Shown piece by piece: positions 35,330 through 59,120 of a stretch of 64,000 bases of DNA (within the stretch, counting starts at the first letter, position 1; each line of letters begins with the position of its first letter). This DNA is from an uncultured Draconibacterium sp. (lineage in GTDB: Bacteria > Bacteroidota > Bacteroidia > Bacteroidales > Prolixibacteraceae). The notes under the pieces are model-generated. The model was not told the origin of the DNA. It saw only the letters and a list, made by a program, of their open reading frames with translations, and did no database searches. Position numbers and translations under genes: made by a program. The stretch covers positions 3,282,501 through 3,346,500 of the forward strand of contig NZ_OY781884.1 of assembly GCF_963677155.1 (NCBI RefSeq). The letters are read 5' to 3'.

Positions 35330-36739
35330 TTAGTTGATTCCTTTAGCCATTTCGATGGCCTTTTTCAATGCCGCCAGTTTGTTATTCACCTCCTGTAATT
35401 CACTTTCTTCTTGCGAGTCGGCCACAATTCCGGCACCTGCCTGGTAAAACAGTTTTTTGTCTTTACTCAAAAACGAACGAATCATAATCGCATGGTTCAC
35501 CGAATTATCAAAACCCAGGTAACCAATACATCCGCCATAGTACCCACGGTTCTGGTTCTCGTATTTATCTATCAGTTCCATGGCTTTATACTTGGGAGCT
35601 CCCGAAAGTGTTCCGGCCGGGAATGTTTCTCCCAGTACTTTAATGAGGTTGGTATCGTCAGTTATTTCGCCCGAAACCTGCGAAACCAAGTGAATTACAT
35701 GCGAAAAGAATTGCACTTCGCGATAGGTTTCAACAATTACATTGTCGGCATTTCTGCTTAAATCGTTACGGGCAAGATCCACCAACATCACGTGCTCGGC
35801 ATTTTCTTTTGGATCTTTGCTCAGCTTTTCAGCCAACTCTCGATCCTGATCGTCGTTACCGGTTCGTTTAAAAGTTCCGGCAATGGGATGAATGTATGCT
35901 TTATTGTCTTTAATTCTGATTTCAGCTTCCGGGCTTGAACCAAAAATACTGTAAGTGCCGTAATCGAAATAGAACAGGTAGGGCGATGGATTTATCGAAC
36001 GAAGTGCACGGTAAACATTAAAATCGTCACCAACAAATTCCTGTGAGAACTGGCGACTTAAAACAATCTGGAAAACGTCACCACGGTAGCAGTGCTCTTT
36101 CCCTTTGGTAACCATTTGCATGTATTCTTCGTCGGTGATGTTCGATTTTTCTTCGCCACGCACATCAAAACTTGCGGTTGAAAAGTTGAGATTCACCAAC
36201 AAATGATGAACGTAATCCATTTGCGATTCTTCGTCTTCCAACAGGTTTTCTACAATGTGGATCTGGTTTTTGTGATGATCGATGGCAACTACATATTTGT
36301 AAAAACTGTAGTGTACTTCTGGTGTTTGGTATTCTTCAGTTTTTGGCGATGAAAAACGAATGCTTTCAAAATGCTGAATGGCATCGAAATTCAGGTAACC
36401 AAATAAACCGTTGGCGGGCAGTTCAATTTCTTCCGAATCAACATTAAATGTTTTGAAGAACTTGTCCAATTCATCATGTAGCTTTTTTTCGGGTGAAAGA
36501 CTAAAATTTTCTTGCTCTCTGCCTGGCAAATTGATGCTAACCTCGCCGTTTGTTACTTTAAAATTGGCAATTGGGTTAAAAGCAATAAATGAGTAAGCAT
36601 TTTCCACTCCGTGGTAATCGGAGCTTTCCAGCAATATCGACTTGGGATAAAGCGTGCGAAGTCGTAAATAAATGCTAACCGGAGTTACGGTATCGGCAAG
36701 TATTTTACGTACGACAGGTTTAAAATTGAGTTTTTCCAT
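35330..36739 (-). CDS. trpE: Anthranilate synthase, component I
   Basis: TrpE turns chorismate into anthranilate and is normally feedback-inhibited by tryptophan. The 469-residue protein has the N-terminal domain that carries the Trp-binding site in this family (LLESSDYHGVENAYSFIAFNP, with the LLES motif). The C-terminal chorismate-binding domain shows GDVFQIVLSRQFSQ, PIAGTFKRTGND, AEHVMLVDLARNDLSR, GTLSGAPKYKAMELI and YYGGCIGYLGF. It is the first structural gene of the operon. Two Trp-codon-rich leader peptides and two terminators lie between promoter and start. Confidence 0.96.
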   Translation of the reverse strand: MEKLNFKPVVRKILADTVTPVSIYLRLRTLYPKSILLESSDYHGVENAYSFIAFNPIANFKVTNGEVSINLPGREQENFSLSPEKKLHDELDKFFKTFNVDSEEIELPANGLFGYLNFDAIQHFESIRFSSPKTEEYQTPEVHYSFYKYVVAIDHHKNQIHIVENLLEDEESQMDYVHHLLVNLNFSTASFDVRGEEKSNITDEEYMQMVTKGKEHCYRGDVFQIVLSRQFSQEFVGDDFNVYRALRSINPSPYLFYFDYGTYSIFGSSPEAEIRIKDNKAYIHPIAGTFKRTGNDDQDRELAEKLSKDPKENAEHVMLVDLARNDLSRNADNVIVETYREVQFFSHVIHLVSQVSGEITDDTNLIKVLGETFPAGTLSGAPKYKAMELIDKYENQNRGYYGGCIGYLGFDNSVNHAIMIRSFLSKDKKLFYQAGAGIVADSQEESELQEVNNKLAALKKAIEMAKGIN

Positions 36740-36797
36740 TTTGTATTTTTTGTTTGTAATTCTATTCTAAAATTGCTGTAACCAAGGTGTTTGAACT

Positions 36798-36829
36798 AAA
36801 AACGGCTCACCGTGAAATCCGATGAGCCG
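36798..36829 (-). terminator. Second trp attenuator terminator, just before trpE
   Basis: Stem arms 36820-36829 and 36803-36812 pair over 10 bp (one G-T) around a 7-base loop. A five-T run follows on the minus strand. It lies 58 bases before trpE and 32 bases after the stop of the second leader peptide. Confidence 0.85.
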
Positions 36830-36860
36830 CTTTTAATTTATGCAATGACGTATCCTCTCT

Positions 36861-36917
36861 TCACGATATTTGTAAAAAGTTGCTGCGCCACCACCAAATG
36901 TTATTGTTTGTTCTCAT
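36861..36917 (-). CDS. trpL: trp leader peptide 2 (three consecutive Trp codons)
   Basis: An 18-residue ORF reads MRTNNNIWWWRSNFLQIS. The three adjacent TGG codons (36888-36896) are what a ribosome-stalling leader needs: when charged tRNA-Trp is scarce, translation should pause there and change the folding of the RNA ahead of terminator 2. Ten-base arms, TTTATGCAAT and its exact complement (36837-36846 and 36930-36939), bracket the ORF and offer a competing structure. It lies after terminator 1 and before terminator 2. Confidence 0.8.
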   Translation of the reverse strand: MRTNNNIWWWRSNFLQIS

Positions 36918-36936
36918 AATAATTAATCTATTGCAT

Positions 36937-36964
36937 AAAAAAACCTGCTCTTGTTAGAAGCAGG
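36937..36964 (-). terminator. First trp attenuator terminator
   Basis: CCTGCT/AGCAGG arms (36959-36964 with 36944-36949) are extended by a G-T pair and followed on the minus strand by seven T (36937-36943). It lies 45 bases after the first leader peptide's stop. Confidence 0.8.
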
Positions 36965-36986
36965 CCAGTCATATCTTTAAAAATAG

Positions 36987-37044
36987 CAATATGGCTCTTA
37001 ACTCCTAACTTACGTAAGAAGACCCCACCACGGAAGCCATATTG
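36987..37044 (-). promoter_or_regulatory. Pairing arms of the first trp attenuator
   Basis: CAATATGGCT inside leader peptide 1 (37035-37044, containing its first Trp codon) has an exact 10-base complement after the stop codon (36987-36996). A ribosome stalled on the following Trp-Trp codons would cover the first arm and free the second. The second can then pair in part with ATATGACTGG (36965-36974) at the foot of terminator 1. This is the layout of a classical attenuator with alternative pairings. Confidence 0.65.
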
Positions 37045-37060
37045 TATTTATTTTTTGCAT
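37010..37060 (-). CDS. trpL: trp leader peptide 1 (three Trp codons)
   Basis: A 16-residue ORF reads MQKINTIWLPWWGLLT, preceded by AGGAA. Three of its 16 codons are TGG, far above expectation. It lies directly upstream of a terminator and then of leader peptide 2. It belongs to the kind of element described in this phylum as the Bacteroid-trp RNA motif, from memory of that family. No exact TTTG/TAnnTTTG promoter is seen between it and sprA, so the transcript start is not fixed. Confidence 0.85.
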   Translation of the reverse strand: MQKINTIWLPWWGLLT

Positions 37061-37164
37061 TTCCTAATTTTAATCTTCTGCAAGAAAAACGTTTTTTTTG
37101 AAAAAACAAAATATTGTTGACAGAAGCTTAAAAAACTATTTCTCAAATAAAGTTGGTTTAACAA

Positions 37165-40100
37165 TTAGTTAGCCAGCGTGAAACGGAAACTTATTCCAAA
37201 ATTTGCATTGGTTGTACGGTACGATAGCGAGGTAAACGGATCGTTAATAATACGATCGTAGTACACACGCATTTCGAACTTATCGCTCAGGCGGTAGTCG
37301 GCATAGGTTTTTAAGGTGAAGTTAGCCTGGCCTGCGGTAATCTGGTTGCTGTTGTCGTCTAACTGGCGTAAGAGTGTTTTTGTTTTACGGTACGAAATAT
37401 CAGCACGAACATTTAGATCATTCGAGTAAGCCCGTTGAGAATTTTTTGTTTTAATAATCAAATCCATTCGTGTAAATCGATAGCCCAATCCTAAAATATA
37501 TTCGTTACTTAAAATTTCAGTAAGCTGGTTGTTCGATAACGAGAGGTTCAGGTTACGTGCACGTTTAATTTCACCACGAGTAGTAAAGTCGTTAAGCCAC
37601 ATGATGTCGATATTGATCAGTGGGTTGAAAGCTTCAACAATACTTACGGTATTAAAATCGTAAGCCGAAACAAAGTTGTCTGCCAGGTCGCGCACCATAG
37701 TATAACCATCTTCTCCGGCGATAAAATTCAGATTGGTTGAGTACGATCCAATGTTGTAGGTTGAACGATAGGTATGTTGGAAATTCAGCGAACGCATCAC
37801 ATTGTTTAATCCCGGAATTCGAGATACCATTCCTTCGTAGCGAATACTCCAGTTCGGACGGATATATTTTAAGGATGGGAACAAGCTCAGCGAAACATCT
37901 TCAGGACTTTTATTTTGGTAAGCTGCCAGGAATGCCGGAACAAGAACTTCAACCGAATTTGGCCCGTAACCATCAGGGTATCCCGGATAGTTTTCGTTCT
38001 GAGCATTCGGATCATAACCTGCACTTGTGCCACGCTGTTGAGCCAGACGTCTGGCTATAGTCAGGCGGTTCTCTTTCATTTTTTCGAAAGCAGCTGAGCT
38101 GGTTACTTCTTCTTTTCCTATTTTGAAAAAGGCAGTTCCCAATGTCAGTGTCGACATGCTAAAGTTGCCGCTTTCGGAGAAGCTATTGGCAACAAAACTA
38201 CCAGAGTTTGTATCGTAGTTGTAGAATTCAGTAATGTTTCTCGATATCGAACGGTTGGCTGTTAAATCAATGCGCAGGTCGGGGAGAGGCTCCCACAGCG
38301 CGCGCAGATTAATCCGCTTGTTTTCCATAATCTGAAACGGTTGATTTAATGTTGTATCGATGGTCAGCCAGCCATTTTCCGCAGCTTTTATCGCAAAGTC
38401 GCGGTCTTGCCAGCCAAACAGAAATGGAAGTCCGGGAGCCAGTTTCTGATCGAGTGTTTGTGTTCCCCATTCCGGATCGCCACTAAATTTACCTGTACCA
38501 AATAAGGTTGGTTCAGGAAGGAAGCCTGGCAAAACAGTACCTCCGTTTTTGCTGTAGTTTACAGTGAAAGTGCGGATTCCAATAACCATTCTTGTGGTGA
38601 TGTCCAACATGTCTTTTATGAACGTCTGGTCGCCGCGTTTCCCGGTAACAGTAAGCATAGCCTGCTGTACGTCAACCGATGGAACAAACTCTATGGTATT
38701 GGCATCAATAATATTCGTTTTTCCCGGAACAGCTTTCCCGTCCACATCGGTAACCAGAACTTTTATTTTTTTTGTATTTAGCTTGTGGGCAAATTGTTGT
38801 CCTTTATCGGCTGTAAATCTTGCACTTCGGCTAAACGTTTCTTCTTGTTTGCGTTGCAGAGGCTGAGTTTGTTGGTTTGTTCTTCCTCTTGTACTCCGGC
38901 TGTTAAGGCTACCTCGTCCGCGTCCTGTTCTTCTGAATTTCTGGTTGACTTCTTTAAAATAGGGCACCTTATTAAACAGGGTTTGAAAGTTGGAAGTACC
39001 GCTTAGTGTAAGGTTGCGCGAGTTGGTTATTATATTTCCAATGTTAATGTCGTCGTTGGTTAACGATCCGGCAGCCCACTCGTAAGTTCCCGAGTAGCGA
39101 ACGGTTCCGCTCATAAAATTCAATGCTTTAATACTTCGGATAGGCAACTGGTAGGTGGCATTGAAACTGTGATTGTATATGGTTGGTCGTCCTAAATTCC
39201 ACAGGTTGGTAAGAATGGAATCGCGTTTCCATTCGTAATCGTCGTCGTTTTTATTTATCCGGCCTTCGGGTTCATCAATTCGTGAGGTTCCGCGCGATGA
39301 AAAATCGACTTTCAGCGAACGGGTAACATCATAACGAATATCAAGGTAACGGTTCCAAAGGAAATCCTTGTCGAAGGTGGTCGGCAGAATCAGGTTTGGA
39401 TTGGTAATATTTCTTGATTGACGCTCGTGGTATTTTCTATATAAATCGGTACGATACGAAATTTGTGTTGGCAGCGGATAGAAATTAAAGTCGCCAATTA
39501 ATTTTAACGGCCCCTTTTGCAGGAACTGAACTTTGCTAAGCGGTTGAATTAGTTTTGGTCGGTTGCTGTAGTTGTACGAGAACATAAAACGGTGCGTTCT
39601 ATCCACGTTATACTCCGTTGTAATGTTACGTTTCGAAGTTTCGTTGTACGAATAGGTAACTGCAAAGTTTGCCGGATCCCACAAATGTGTTTTTTCTTTC
39701 TTGCGTTGCGGCTCCACTTTTACGTTGGTAAAATTGAGGCTTTTTCGCTCAATCACATCCTGCGATATATTTTTTATCGAATCCCTCTCGCTTCTGTTTC
39801 GCGCATGACTCAGCGATTCTTTTAATTCAATATCCGGATTTACCGGATCGTATTTTGGCGTTGCGGTGCTGTTTGAGTAGCCATAGTACATTGGAATACG
39901 CACACCGGCTCTTTCCGGGAAGAAGCGTCCCCAGTCGATAGATGCTGACACATCGATTTCATCCAGATCATCGATCATCCTGCTGTTAATATTTTCGTCG
40001 ATACTGCCAAAACCCGCGGTACGTTTACGTCCGGCAACTACTACGCTACCCAGGTCGGCCAAACGTGTTGAAACCCGTGCATTAGCTGCCCAGCCACCTT

Positions 40101-43100
40101 CATCATCGAAATCGGTTAAGCGTAACTCATTGGCCCAAACAATTGCTGATTTTGGTCCTGTGTTTACCTGTCCTCTTTTGTTTCGAACACCCATCATCAT
40201 AACTTCCACATTACCCAGGTTTGGGCTACCTTTTACTTTTACGCGGTTTTTACCGTCGTTCCAGCCAGTGTGTGAACCTTCAAAAACATCCTGCATCGAA
40301 ATGGTTGAACCTTCCACTCGCATGGCATCGTTGCGCTCCAGTTTCAGGTTAGTAAAAAGTTCGAGCGGAATATTTATCCGGTTTTGATCGGGCCAAACGA
40401 TATAACGGTCGCTTTCAACGTCGCCTCTGTAGTTACTACTAGGTGGAGTAAGTACCAATGGCACTTCGTATTCGTAATAGTTATAATTGTAATCCGATCC
40501 CAGACGAATAAAGAAATACAGTTCATCATCTTCCAGCGGGTATTCTTCAATTTCTTCGGCATGTACTTCCATTTTCAGGGTTTTATACCTTCTGAAATCC
40601 ATGTACAACGATTTGTATGCCGCACGTGCGTCGCCTTCTGCCAGCTCGGTTACTTTCATCTCAATCGATTGCTCGTTTAGCTGGCGCAGCTGTGGATTGG
40701 CCGGGTCGATTACCCTTGATACCCCCGGAGGTAAGATATAGTTTACCGGTTCGCGGCTTGAGTTTTCTTCGATACTCACGGCAGAAATGTCAAACTGTGC
40801 ATTTGTTGAAGGAATTCCACCTTCTTCCAAAATATCGCCGGTGTAACGACGCCAATCGGCGCGAACAAGGTCGAGTGTGGCAAAACGCAGAACCGTAGAA
40901 TCCTGAAATCCGTGTAAGAACATTCTCATAAAACGAATGGAACTAAAATCATTGATACCACCGACTACTGCATCAGGTTTAGTTACCGGAATCTTAAACT
41001 GATACCAAGCTGCTTCTCCTGTTTTTCCATTTTTTAACGAAACCGGTCTGCTTCTTTTATCAACAATATAGTTCTTGCCAACAACCATATCCTCTTTTTT
41101 TATACTAACCTTGTATTGAAAATAGCGTTCGTATTCATTCAGAGTGTTGTCTCCGTTAATGTCTTCAATATCAGGTAGTGTTGTCGCCGAAGTTGGGTAG
41201 GGCTCCTTTGACATTTCCGTAGTTGGTGAGTTGCCATCGGGGCCGTTATATTTTTTGTAGCGTTCCAGAATCCCCAGTTCCTGCCCATCGTAATCTGATC
41301 CGCGGTAATAGTGGAAGTTATCCGAGGAGGGGTCGTTCATGACCTGCTGGTAAACATCGTCGCTTACCTTTTGCTGCAATTCCTGCAAGTATCTTTCAAA
41401 ATGTGTACGCTCGTCATCATCGTTCAATCCGTCAAAGCCAATATCCTGATACTGGCGGGAACTTGCGGTATTGTCGAAGGCATTTACAAGCGACTGTTGT
41501 GTTGATACGCGGCCCCAAATGGTCGTGTCGACATTGGTTAATTCGGCAGTTGTAGGTAATCCGTTCTCGAACGATTTTCGCGAGTCTTTTAATACATCTT
41601 CCGATATTTCTCCGAGGTTGAAATACAGTTCTCCTTCATTTTCCATTGGTTCAAGCGGGCCCCAATCATCATCAGGGTCAACGTATGGATCCATCATCCA
41701 GAATTCGATGTACTCGATGTTGGCATTTTCAAAGTCGCTGGTTTGAATTTCGCGCATAATACCACCCCAGCGCGATTCTGGATCGCGTAAAGTACCGTCA
41801 GGATTTACACCTGCCGCATTACTGGAGTTACCTGTGTCGTAATTGTACGGACCACGCTCTTTCGGATAAAAAGCCAGGTCGAGCACGGCAATGTTTGTTG
41901 GCTCTCCGGTTGTAAACTCACGTTCCGGAAATATCTCTTGTTCGAACACCTCGCGCACCAGGTGGTTCGACTGTAAATTCTTGTCGTTTTTTATATAATT
42001 GGGAGTAAGCGAATTGTTTCGCAGAAACAACGGATCGATGTTATACCATGCTAACCTTGCACGGTTCATACCGTAATCAAGCGATTTATTCAGGTTGGCT
42101 TCAGGGAACATATTCTCCTGATTCTGTGGGGTACTGGCCAGCATCCATGCCGAACGGGTTCGCATGTCGATAGCTGTTTTTGTTGCCTCAAAGTCATCAA
42201 TATAAACAGCTCCGTTAATCGATTTTGAGCTTCCCGGAACCAATCGAGCAAATTCCGCCTCTACATCAATTGTAGATGTAGCGTTGGTTGAATAAAAAGG
42301 TAATGCGTTTAATGCTTTGGTAATAAAAGGCGCTTCGGTATTGTAACGGGCATCCATTCCGTATATCAGGTTCGAAATCGGATCTTCGCCATAATCCACT
42401 TTCTCCGTTAAAGGGCGTTCGTTCATCCACAACATGGTGGCTCCGATATTGAAATTATCGGAGAAGGCGTAGTTGGCATGAGTTCCCATCAGGGTTTTGC
42501 GCTGCATGGTAAACAGGTCTTCGCTTTCGGTGGCAACCTGAATTGGCGTTCCGGCTTCGAGTAGTGCCTGGTTAATAATTTTTACACGGCCCAATGTGTA
42601 GTCTACTGTGTAATCTACGTTTTCGGTAAGCACCTGCCCACCGGCGGTAACTTTTACCGAACCTTGTGTAAGATTTAAAGTCCCCAGTGCGATATCGGAA
42701 CTGGACGAACCTTTGTAACTACCGGTGAGCCGGAATTTATTGTGTTCGGCATCTTGTTCTGCCTTTACCTGTGTAGAATCGTATAGCGTTTGGAAAGAGA
42801 ATTGCTCAATATCGGACGGACTTTGAAGGGAATCGGCCAGATGACTGCCAAATGGTTCAATCACCGGGAAAATTATACGACCCGAGTTGGAGTTAATCGT
42901 AATGCCTTCAACATAATCGAACACGCCGTCTTTTGTTGGATCGAGCTGCGAATTGAGCATATCCAAACGCATTACTTCCAAAAGAATATGTCCCTGGATT
43001 CGTGATGACGGCAGGTAATTGATGTAGGTACCTGTTGAATCGTTTTGGTAAACTACATTCAGTTCGAAATCGTCGTTGGTTAACTGATAGGCGTTCAGGT

Positions 43101-44655
43101 TGTAAATGTTTTTCATCATCAGGTTCCATGTTGGCTTTCCCGGCGACAAGTTTGTGCCTTTCAGTAGTTTCATAAACAGTGTTTGCGGCGCATCAATACC
43201 ATCGGTTGAGAATTCACCCACCTGGAATGTTTGTCCGTTGTAAGTAAAGTTAAAGGCTACTGCCAAAACTTCATCGGTATTTAAAGCACTGTTTAACGAA
43301 ATATATCCCAATTGTTTGTTGATGGTAAATTCGCTATCGTTTAGTTTGCGTGCCTGCTCAATTTTTTCGAAGTCGGTACCGCCTTTAAAATTCTCCCCGA
43401 ATTCCGACATAGTGCTGGTAACATTCTGTATCTGGCGCACATTGCTGTAGGTGGTCTTCATTTCGTTGTAAAGACCGTTGGCTTCGTTGTTCGGAAAAAT
43501 ATTTTTAGGGTAGGGCAGCCCGTTATTTTGCTGAAATTGTGAAATAGGGTTGTAAATGTGTGGATTGTGTTCTGCTAAATCCTGAAAGGCCAGAATGTTT
43601 CGCGAATCATCAAAATCGTTTGATTTGTTGGTTACCCAAACTTCTACTTTGTTAATGGTGATGGGCGAACGCGGAACGGCAGTACTTTGCAACCATTCGT
43701 TGTAATGATCGCGAAAATATTGTGCCAGAAAAAAGTGGCGGTTGGCATCGTAATTTGCTGCTGAAATATCGAAAGTGGCTACCTGGGCACCTCCTTCGGT
43801 TTGCACGGTTTTCGATTCGCCGCGATGTTGCGAAAATAGTGTGGTAAGTGTAAGCTTCCCGAACTGCATTTCGGCTTTAACACCAAACAGGTTGGAGGCT
43901 CCTGTAATTAACGACCCGTTTAATGGTAACGATACATTTCCGGCTTCAATGCGTTGTAGAATTTCATCTTCGTCGCCGGTGTACTCAAGGTTCATTTTGT
44001 TTTCGTAATCAAAAGTAGCCTCGGTGTTGTAGTTCACCCGCATATTCATTTTTGTACCGATTTGGCCGGTAACGTTCATCTGAATTTTTTCGTCGAAATC
44101 AAAAGTTGGAACTTTTCGCAAACGTTCAGGAATCGATGGATTTTCGGTTTTATTTACCTGGTAGCCAAAACTTACTTCAACATAACCTTGCGGCTGAATA
44201 TTGATGGTGTTTCCTCCGAAAATACGGTTAAAGGCTTCGCTGCCAATTGTAAGTTTAGGGAGTAGTCCGCCACGGGCATCAATCGATTCCTGCTGTGTTC
44301 TCGTGCGCCAGTAATCACGTATCGATTTATCGAAATCATATTCGAGGTAATCGTCGAGCGACATACTTTGCGGCAAACGGTAATTCAGCGATCCCACCTT
44401 TTCGTAAAACACGTACTGACCAGTAATCGGGTCGTACACAATTTCATATTTTATGTTGCTGGGCTTGTTGAGGTATAATTTCGACGAATCCTGGTCGGGA
44501 TATCCAAAAGCCGGCTGGTCTTCAAAAGGGTATGGCAATGTGCCCGTTGTATCTATTTCAGACACTTCCTGAGCTTCTCCATTGAAAGGAACTGAAAGGG
44601 CAAAAAATACAAATAGAATGAAGAATATTTTAGGTAAACTTCGGCTAAGTGTCAT
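37165..44655 (-). CDS. sprA: Cell-surface/T9SS translocon protein SprA
   Basis: The very large protein (2496 residues) starts with a signal peptide (MTLSRSLPKIFFILFVFFALSVPFNGEAQ). An N-terminal SprA region follows (LNYRLPQSMSLDDYLEYDFDKSIRDYWRTRTQ, and GGNTINIQPQGYVEVSFGYQVNKTENPSIPERLRKVPTFDFDEKIQMNVTGQIGTKMN), both well-known SprA stretches. The rest is a huge beta barrel ending KTYADYRLSDKFEMRVYYDRI...NFGISFRFTL. SprA is the outer-membrane channel of the type IX secretion system, about 2400 residues in Flavobacterium johnsoniae. Its neighbour ruvA is the one commonly found beside sprA. The trp operon begins just downstream on the same strand. Confidence 0.96.
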   Translation of the reverse strand: MTLSRSLPKIFFILFVFFALSVPFNGEAQEVSEIDTTGTLPYPFEDQPAFGYPDQDSSKLYLNKPSNIKYEIVYDPITGQYVFYEKVGSLNYRLPQSMSLDDYLEYDFDKSIRDYWRTRTQQESIDARGGLLPKLTIGSEAFNRIFGGNTINIQPQGYVEVSFGYQVNKTENPSIPERLRKVPTFDFDEKIQMNVTGQIGTKMNMRVNYNTEATFDYENKMNLEYTGDEDEILQRIEAGNVSLPLNGSLITGASNLFGVKAEMQFGKLTLTTLFSQHRGESKTVQTEGGAQVATFDISAANYDANRHFFLAQYFRDHYNEWLQSTAVPRSPITINKVEVWVTNKSNDFDDSRNILAFQDLAEHNPHIYNPISQFQQNNGLPYPKNIFPNNEANGLYNEMKTTYSNVRQIQNVTSTMSEFGENFKGGTDFEKIEQARKLNDSEFTINKQLGYISLNSALNTDEVLAVAFNFTYNGQTFQVGEFSTDGIDAPQTLFMKLLKGTNLSPGKPTWNLMMKNIYNLNAYQLTNDDFELNVVYQNDSTGTYINYLPSSRIQGHILLEVMRLDMLNSQLDPTKDGVFDYVEGITINSNSGRIIFPVIEPFGSHLADSLQSPSDIEQFSFQTLYDSTQVKAEQDAEHNKFRLTGSYKGSSSSDIALGTLNLTQGSVKVTAGGQVLTENVDYTVDYTLGRVKIINQALLEAGTPIQVATESEDLFTMQRKTLMGTHANYAFSDNFNIGATMLWMNERPLTEKVDYGEDPISNLIYGMDARYNTEAPFITKALNALPFYSTNATSTIDVEAEFARLVPGSSKSINGAVYIDDFEATKTAIDMRTRSAWMLASTPQNQENMFPEANLNKSLDYGMNRARLAWYNIDPLFLRNNSLTPNYIKNDKNLQSNHLVREVFEQEIFPEREFTTGEPTNIAVLDLAFYPKERGPYNYDTGNSSNAAGVNPDGTLRDPESRWGGIMREIQTSDFENANIEYIEFWMMDPYVDPDDDWGPLEPMENEGELYFNLGEISEDVLKDSRKSFENGLPTTAELTNVDTTIWGRVSTQQSLVNAFDNTASSRQYQDIGFDGLNDDDERTHFERYLQELQQKVSDDVYQQVMNDPSSDNFHYYRGSDYDGQELGILERYKKYNGPDGNSPTTEMSKEPYPTSATTLPDIEDINGDNTLNEYERYFQYKVSIKKEDMVVGKNYIVDKRSRPVSLKNGKTGEAAWYQFKIPVTKPDAVVGGINDFSSIRFMRMFLHGFQDSTVLRFATLDLVRADWRRYTGDILEEGGIPSTNAQFDISAVSIEENSSREPVNYILPPGVSRVIDPANPQLRQLNEQSIEMKVTELAEGDARAAYKSLYMDFRRYKTLKMEVHAEEIEEYPLEDDELYFFIRLGSDYNYNYYEYEVPLVLTPPSSNYRGDVESDRYIVWPDQNRINIPLELFTNLKLERNDAMRVEGSTISMQDVFEGSHTGWNDGKNRVKVKGSPNLGNVEVMMMGVRNKRGQVNTGPKSAIVWANELRLTDFDDEGGWAANARVSTRLADLGSVVVAGRKRTAGFGSIDENINSRMIDDLDEIDVSASIDWGRFFPERAGVRIPMYYGYSNSTATPKYDPVNPDIELKESLSHARNRSERDSIKNISQDVIERKSLNFTNVKVEPQRKKEKTHLWDPANFAVTYSYNETSKRNITTEYNVDRTHRFMFSYNYSNRPKLIQPLSKVQFLQKGPLKLIGDFNFYPLPTQISYRTDLYRKYHERQSRNITNPNLILPTTFDKDFLWNRYLDIRYDVTRSLKVDFSSRGTSRIDEPEGRINKNDDDYEWKRDSILTNLWNLGRPTIYNHSFNATYQLPIRSIKALNFMSGTVRYSGTYEWAAGSLTNDDINIGNIITNSRNLTLSGTSNFQTLFNKVPYFKEVNQKFRRTGRGRGSLNSRSTRGRTNQQTQPLQRKQEETFSRSARFTADKGQQFAHKLNTKKIKVLVTDVDGKAVPGKTNIIDANTIEFVPSVDVQQAMLTVTGKRGDQTFIKDMLDITTRMVIGIRTFTVNYSKNGGTVLPGFLPEPTLFGTGKFSGDPEWGTQTLDQKLAPGLPFLFGWQDRDFAIKAAENGWLTIDTTLNQPFQIMENKRINLRALWEPLPDLRIDLTANRSISRNITEFYNYDTNSGSFVANSFSESGNFSMSTLTLGTAFFKIGKEEVTSSAAFEKMKENRLTIARRLAQQRGTSAGYDPNAQNENYPGYPDGYGPNSVEVLVPAFLAAYQNKSPEDVSLSLFPSLKYIRPNWSIRYEGMVSRIPGLNNVMRSLNFQHTYRSTYNIGSYSTNLNFIAGEDGYTMVRDLADNFVSAYDFNTVSIVEAFNPLINIDIMWLNDFTTRGEIKRARNLNLSLSNNQLTEILSNEYILGLGYRFTRMDLIIKTKNSQRAYSNDLNVRADISYRKTKTLLRQLDDNSNQITAGQANFTLKTYADYRLSDKFEMRVYYDRIINDPFTSLSYRTTNANFGISFRFTLAN

Positions 44656-59017: not shown

Positions 59018-59120
59018 AGTAGCTCAGTTGGTTGTGTAGGAAAGCGCAGCTTTCTTACGCTTTAAGAGCGGCGGACTGTTAATCCGTAGGTCGTTGGTTC
59101 AAGTCCAACCTGGGGAGCCA
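59018..59120 (+). pseudogene. tRNA-Asn copy broken by a 31-bp hairpin insert
   Basis: The D-arm piece AGTAGCTCAGTTGGTT (59018-59033) equals that of the intact tRNA (49962-49977). Then 31 foreign bases (59034-59064) intervene, and the rest of the tRNA resumes at 59065 with no mismatch. The insert can fold into a stem of 10 bp (GTAGGAAAGC/GCTTTCTTAC, one G-T). The acceptor 5' strand (TCCCC) is lost, so no functional tRNA can form. Confidence 0.85.

Follow-up and report, generated by a model that had tools for sequence, protein, structure and literature searches.

The window, the whole 64,000-nucleotide stretch of uncultured Draconibacterium sp. DNA analyzed here, carries a trp operon on its minus strand. 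Downstream of trpE, more trp ORFs extend as far as 30071 (minus strand); we take these to be trpG, D, C, F, B and A. The leader lies on the same strand between trpE, which starts at 36739, and a 2496-aa ORF ending at 37165 (Table 1). It comprises two units in series, each with a leader ORF containing three Trp codons (LP1 and LP2) and an intrinsic terminator (T1 and T2). Both leader ORFs and both hairpins with T-tracts were found at the minus-strand positions given by the original prediction. The 2496-aa ORF (37165-44655), directly upstream of the leader, presumably encodes a protein resembling the type IX secretion protein SprA. Elsewhere in the window, 59059-59109 matched part of the Rfam tRNA model (36.4 bits, model positions 10-63) without an ARAGORN call and may be a tRNA fragment.

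Table 1. Features of the trpE leader and first operon gene, in window coordinates.
Feature	Coordinates	Strand	Basis
Promoter-like motif TTTTG-N18-TTTTCTTG, upstream of unit 1	37081..37111	-	Read from sequence; transcription start inferred a few bases downstream
LP1, leader ORF MQKINTIWLPWWGLLT, 3 Trp codons	37010..37060	-	Sequence; plan shared with relatives
Unit 1 P1 5' arm CAATATGGCT, overlapping first Trp codon	37035..37044	-	Sequence and genus comparison
Unit 1 P1 3' arm AGCCATATTG	36987..36996	-	Sequence and genus comparison
Unit 1 antiterminator 5' strand GTTAGGAGT, running on into AG and GCC within 36993-36998	37001..37009	-	Swap test
Unit 1 antiterminator 3' strand GGCCTGCTTCTAAC, also terminator 5' arm	36953..36966	-	Swap test
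T1, first intrinsic terminator with T-tract (tract ends 36937)	36937..36966	-	Fold, consensus scan, swap test
LP2, leader ORF MRTNNNIWWWRSNFLQIS, 3 adjacent Trp codons	36861..36917	-	Sequence; conserved
Unit 2 region 1, CTTTTTAC	36872..36879	-	Pairs with GTGAAGAG in fold; fixed-window swap test
Unit 2 region 2, GTGAAGAG, across LP2 stop codon	36857..36864	-	Fold and swap test
Unit 2 antiterminator 5' strand CGTGAA	36860..36865	-	Swap test of region 2 with the loop and 3' arm of T2
Unit 2 antiterminator 3' strand TTCACG, in T2 loop and 3' arm	36811..36816	-	Per-genome scan and swap test
T2, second intrinsic terminator with T-tract (tract ends 36798)	36798..36830	-	Fold; -19.5 kcal/mol in per-genome scan
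trpE, first gene of the operon	35330..36739	-	ORF list; TrpE relatives found

Folding of the 271-nt leader, a check proposed with the original prediction, gave -80.6 kcal/mol compared to a mean of -56.5 kcal/mol for 200 shuffles (z -5.9), none of which was as good. T1 was the sole terminator listed by the consensus scan (1 found, 0.5 expected in shuffles). T2 was visible in the leader fold and the per-genome scan, though missing from the consensus scan. Upstream of unit 1, a TTG-spacer-TANT-YTTK pattern was present in 86/94 regions compared to 0.06 in mononucleotide shuffles; the pattern was composed after the sequences were seen, so this count is descriptive. No sigma-70-type site was found in the leader by the consensus scan (2.3 expected in shuffles), and to our knowledge promoters of this type are not expected to be in use in Bacteroidota. 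Transcription starting between the units had been named as an outcome that would defeat a tandem arrangement. The position of the promoter-like motif fits a single transcript across both units, and an internal start may still exist.

Base pairing in the two units

The P1 arms of unit 1 were located where predicted and form at least 8 contiguous pairs in 32/32 regions of the genus. A further strand, GTTAGGAG...GCC, has alternative partners, either within LP1 (CTTCT plus the P1 5' arm) or in the T1 5' arm. Swap tests compared each leader's own pairing with pairings exchanged between genomes. For the unit 1 antiterminator, own pairing gave -14.7 kcal/mol and swapped pairing -11.6 kcal/mol, and 58 of 68 unique pairs favored the leader's own partner. 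By lineage, own pairing was better in 24/32 (g1-like), 13/16 (g2 and g6) and 13/15 (g9 and g17). The T1 stem (56/64) and P1 (14/19) behaved likewise, and P2 gave 30/57 overall and 12/16 in the group lacking T1 (L144 counted in). The antiterminator excludes the terminator and varies with T1 between species. As predicted from these sequences, the pairing of unit 1 is the plan of classical attenuation. Alignment A1 comprised 61 sequences (74 unique cores minus an empty row, L012, and 12 near-duplicates) and alignment A2 50 of 56, with the antiterminator strand shifting by one column between lineages.

Unit 2 had been predicted to use its own pair of 10-base arms, TTTATGCAA(T) and its complement. 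These exist in the window. The arm is kept in 5/32 genus members, compared to 32/32 for the unit 1 arms. A match of at least 8 was seen in 7/32 genus regions (two of these being T/A runs only), and own pairing was no better than swapped (12/31 unique pairs). The overlap through which the two switches were proposed to influence each other involves this arm, and is likewise not conserved.

It is more likely that unit 2 uses CTTTTTAC:GTGAAGAG and CGTGAA:TTCACG. The first of these strands lies 3' of the LP2 Trp codons, with its partner over the stop codon, and own pairing was better in 63/87. The antiterminator, formed by region 2 with the T2 loop and 3' arm, was better with its own partner in 65/85; the control pairing of region 2 with the T2 5' arm reached just 33/82. 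Within g1 the region 1:2 and antiterminator tests gave 21/29 and 23/28, respectively. Both were neutral in g9 (6/12 each), as was the antiterminator test in g2 (6/10). For seven genomes without unit 1, the region 1:2 test failed (3/7) and the antiterminator held (6/7). A compensated change, identified by eye, makes CGGAAGTT:AACTTCCG the antiterminator pair of the g4, g5 and g19 genomes. Energy differences for this antiterminator are about 1 kcal/mol, and pairing with the terminator loop and 3' arm is an unusual layout. As a separate observation, the acceptor stem of a tRNA-Trp gene (L257:1469-1542) contains CACGG and CCGTG, as do the unit 2 antiterminator pairs of relatives; this may be chance.

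Distribution of the tandem leader

Of the 140 GTDB family genomes, 127 yielded a TrpE relative (E up to 1e-100). A total of 120 upstream regions were read, giving 121 with the window. Left out of the 121 were G014, G079 and G123 (upstream sequence or full gene wanting) and G062, G063 and G067; the upstream regions of genomes lacking a TrpE match, G040 and G059 among them, stand outside the count. Near-identical TrpE sequences in named records belong to Draconibacterium, and slightly more distant ones to Maribellus and Mariniphaga. Both units were complete (an LP1 starting with ATG, T1, an LP2 with a Trp run, and T2) in 77/121 regions, and in 32/35 regions of the window's genus. Because the genomes share ancestry, neither these counts nor the others given here for relatives are independent. 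The comparison with relatives that the original prediction called for was therefore favorable on both Trp codon sets and both terminators, which are kept, and unfavorable on the second arm pair.

By pattern, a unit 1 type leader was present in 98/121 regions, 94 with the fixed hairpin core and four, all g23 members, with a diverged core. The core is present but was missed by the pattern in three more: G132 and G008, in both of which it sits some 1 kb ahead of trpE, and G100. A covariance model, R1, built from 61 unit 1 cores matched 102/140 family genomes under stricter filters. The G068 match is weak and on a different contig from trpE; those of G014, G022, G059 and G097 are on contigs without a TrpE match, and the gene neighbor is therefore not shown. 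The R1 search found no second core copy of comparable strength in any family genome. Second matches within a genome come from the near-palindrome read on the reverse strand; one further weak match was seen in G052. Among 393 genomes drawn from the order, R1 revealed no new trp locus. Six had matches, three being family members (the window's genome included) and the others G185, G217 and G462. The latter three were rejected as chance hairpins, the ~3 kb stretches around them encoding no TrpE, G, D or C.

Relatives that by name lie outside the family, including Labilibacter, Plebeiobacterium and Tenacibaculum, have one WWW leader within 450 bases of trpE. L078, a family member with TrpE 60% identical, also has one leader. 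Given the single WWW leader of relatives outside the family, where no unit 1 core was found, we regard unit 2 as probably the older and unit 1 as a later addition. In L024 (Tangfeifania diversioriginum; matches G132) and L027 (matches G008), about 700 bases separate the units. The insert spans roughly -1000 to -270 relative to trpE and encodes an NTP_transf_2 nucleotidyltransferase and HepT-like pair (toxin-antitoxin type) in L024 and a similar, partly broken nucleotidyltransferase/HepT-like pair in L027. Longer inter-unit gaps with apparent remnants of such a pair were seen by eye in g16 genomes.

A single unit might be the real Trp switch and the other a decaying duplicate, as relatives with one working unit exist. 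Thirteen of the 16 regions lacking T1 have unit 2 by pattern, and the search ahead of trpE in L130 and L132 (g23) revealed just a WxWW leader and its terminator, unit 2 not being found. However, 32 of 35 genus regions retain both units complete, with antiterminators that match their own terminators, and we judge decay of one unit to be improbable.

The unit 1 core in leaders without T1

T1 is absent from 16 of the 94 core regions, and none of the 16 has an ATG in frame at 45 nt or less from the first TGG. An in-frame ATG is present in 81/81 regions with T1 and 0/16 without, the exception being L144, in which the ATG is kept and T1 damaged. Eight of the 16 have an in-frame stop within 39 nt upstream. 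The nearest ATG is out of frame in four g15 members, and three g8 members carry ATT at -9, a possible near-cognate start. In the 12 regions outside g8, ATAAATACAATATGGCTTCCGTGGTGGGG is identical across 29 bases with variable flanks. Because TGG...TGGTGGG and an arm resembling GCCATATT were part of the search pattern, conservation of those bases is partly selection; the pattern left the remaining bases of the 29 unconstrained. The loop lacks CCG in the four g8 members, and that of G100 is also different. A TrpE-G-D-C tree was built for 41 genomes, with G117 and G068 chosen as the root and G100 mislabelled as core-less. On it, tips without T1 were scattered among lineages with T1, occupying four or more places: g8, G130, G052 and the g21-g15-g7 group.

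Codon choice in LP1 is similarly fixed. In genomes with T1, CCG encodes Pro in 56/56, ATA Ile in 72/72 and GGT Gly in 58/59 at their positions; across the seven trp genes of the window these codons are used at 0.30, 0.19 and 0.31, respectively. The unpaired loop UUCCGUGGUGGGG is fixed in most genera. Attenuation alone leaves these codons, and a hairpin that outlives its ORF in 16 regions, unexplained. As the core persists without T1 and ATG, a role without the leader peptide seems likely. The fixed LP1 codons and the 29-base identity, read from the DNA, likewise make the core seem to act at the RNA level.

Among seven swap tests on leaders lacking T1, each with few sequences, no convincing switching partner for the hairpin was found. 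With the LP2 body as partner, own pairing of region 2 beat swapped pairing in 10/13 (-10.0 compared to -9.5 kcal/mol). With the T2 5' arm it did so in 10/12, yet with a worse mean (-6.8 compared to -7.0). The five remaining tests gave 3 to 6 better of 7 to 12. P1 was also considered as a terminator in its own right in these genomes (at least 4 T in the next 8 bases); in L154 the run is just TTT and the stem AT-rich.

These features could indicate that the core serves first of all to sense or bind Trp, tRNA-Trp or a protein as RNA, with the leader peptide and T1 added in some lineages. It would then be a small, translation-independent element specific to the family's trp operon, perhaps sensing Trp or tRNA-Trp, whose loop TGG-TGG doubles as terminator-driving leader codons in several lineages. 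Its persistence without T1 and ATG, the 29-base identity, its fixed Pro and Ile codons and the lack of a second copy of comparable strength in family genomes are in keeping with this. If true, one sequence would serve at once as RNA structure and as codons. Several observations weigh against it, and we consider it unlikely. T1 and ATG co-occur, as expected if translation drives T1, and Ile ATA is also held by P1 pairing. The g23 members L128, L129, L130 and L132 lack the core sequence yet have a WxWW ORF and T1, like a plain leader peptide. The altered loops of g8 and G100, the partial selection of core bases by the search pattern and the want of a clear switching partner in leaders without T1 point the same way. 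By inspection, the tRNA-Trp acceptor 3' end showed no good fit to the loop.

By analogy with Sinorhizobium, the terminated leader RNA or LP1 may instead act in trans and so hold the loop fixed. The Sinorhizobium leader RNA rnTrpL is said to act in this way. One study reports the same of its leader peptide, peTrpL (PMC7298713). The fixed loop would fit action in trans, which we nevertheless consider highly improbable here. We favor attenuation by both units, with additional constraint on the unit 1 core. What a Trp-codon hairpin that nothing seems to translate does in lineages lacking T1 and a start codon is a question that these leaders pose.

Proposed mechanism and relation to known systems

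Both units place a leader ORF with Trp codons ahead of the trp operon. ORFs, terminators and conservation are present in each, as are antiterminators matched to their own terminators, strong in unit 1 and weaker in unit 2. We consider it highly probable that the trpE leader constitutes two complete ribosome-mediated Trp attenuators in series, the unit 1 core being constrained independently of the peptide as well. From these elements we infer translation, stalling, termination and a multiplicative response. In each unit, the leader peptide would be translated during transcription of the leader. With sufficient charged tRNA-Trp, the ribosome would reach the stop codon and the terminator of that unit would form. 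A ribosome stalled on the Trp codons would cover region 1, allowing region 2 to pair with terminator sequence and RNA polymerase to pass. The unit 1 Trp codons lie within region 1, so a ribosome stalled there would be expected to free region 2. Polymerase would have to clear T1 and then T2. As both must be passed, the two readthroughs should combine multiplicatively, with less leakage at high Trp than one unit would allow. A steeper or two-step response to Trp, as originally suggested, may result. Two units with the same control codons represent a natural experiment in cascaded attenuation: does the cascade provide tighter repression or a steeper response?

No Rfam family matched the trpE leader above its cut-off. 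Its best weak match was to Trp_leader (RF00513), in unit 1, at 24 bits with a cut-off of 41. The E. coli trp attenuator described by this family shares Trp codons and mutually exclusive hairpins with the leader studied here. It differs in being a single unit, and the window scores under its cut-off. No T-box family was among the 13 Rfam matches in 36600-37200 (E up to 10).

Bacteroid-trp (RF01692, cut-off 49 bits) had been put forward for comparison and gave no match, either in 36600-37200 (E up to 10) or genome-wide (E up to 0.001). The single leader of L078 matched it at 65.1 bits, the sole match among 20 loci scanned. The alignment of L078 shows the likeness: a Trp-codon leader ahead of Bacteroidetes trp genes, with a hairpin including the Trp codons followed by a terminator arm. 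Unlike the window's leader, this family has one unit. In Weinberg 2010, Bacteroid-trp is classed as a probable cis-regulatory RNA and not as a switch (PMC2864571).

No account of a double Trp attenuator was found in the literature searched, which covers few subscription titles, and the available part of PMC4833913 mentions no case. Tandem riboswitches such as B. clausii metE also place two switches with terminators in one leader; there the RNA directly senses two ligands (PMC3641672). The nearest precedent found is the Salmonella mgtCBR operon, on which tandem attenuators with two leader ORFs act. The two leader ORFs of mgtCBR respond to two signals, ATP and proline, without intrinsic-terminator-like hairpins, whereas both units of the trpE leader combine Trp codons with a terminator (PMC3641672).
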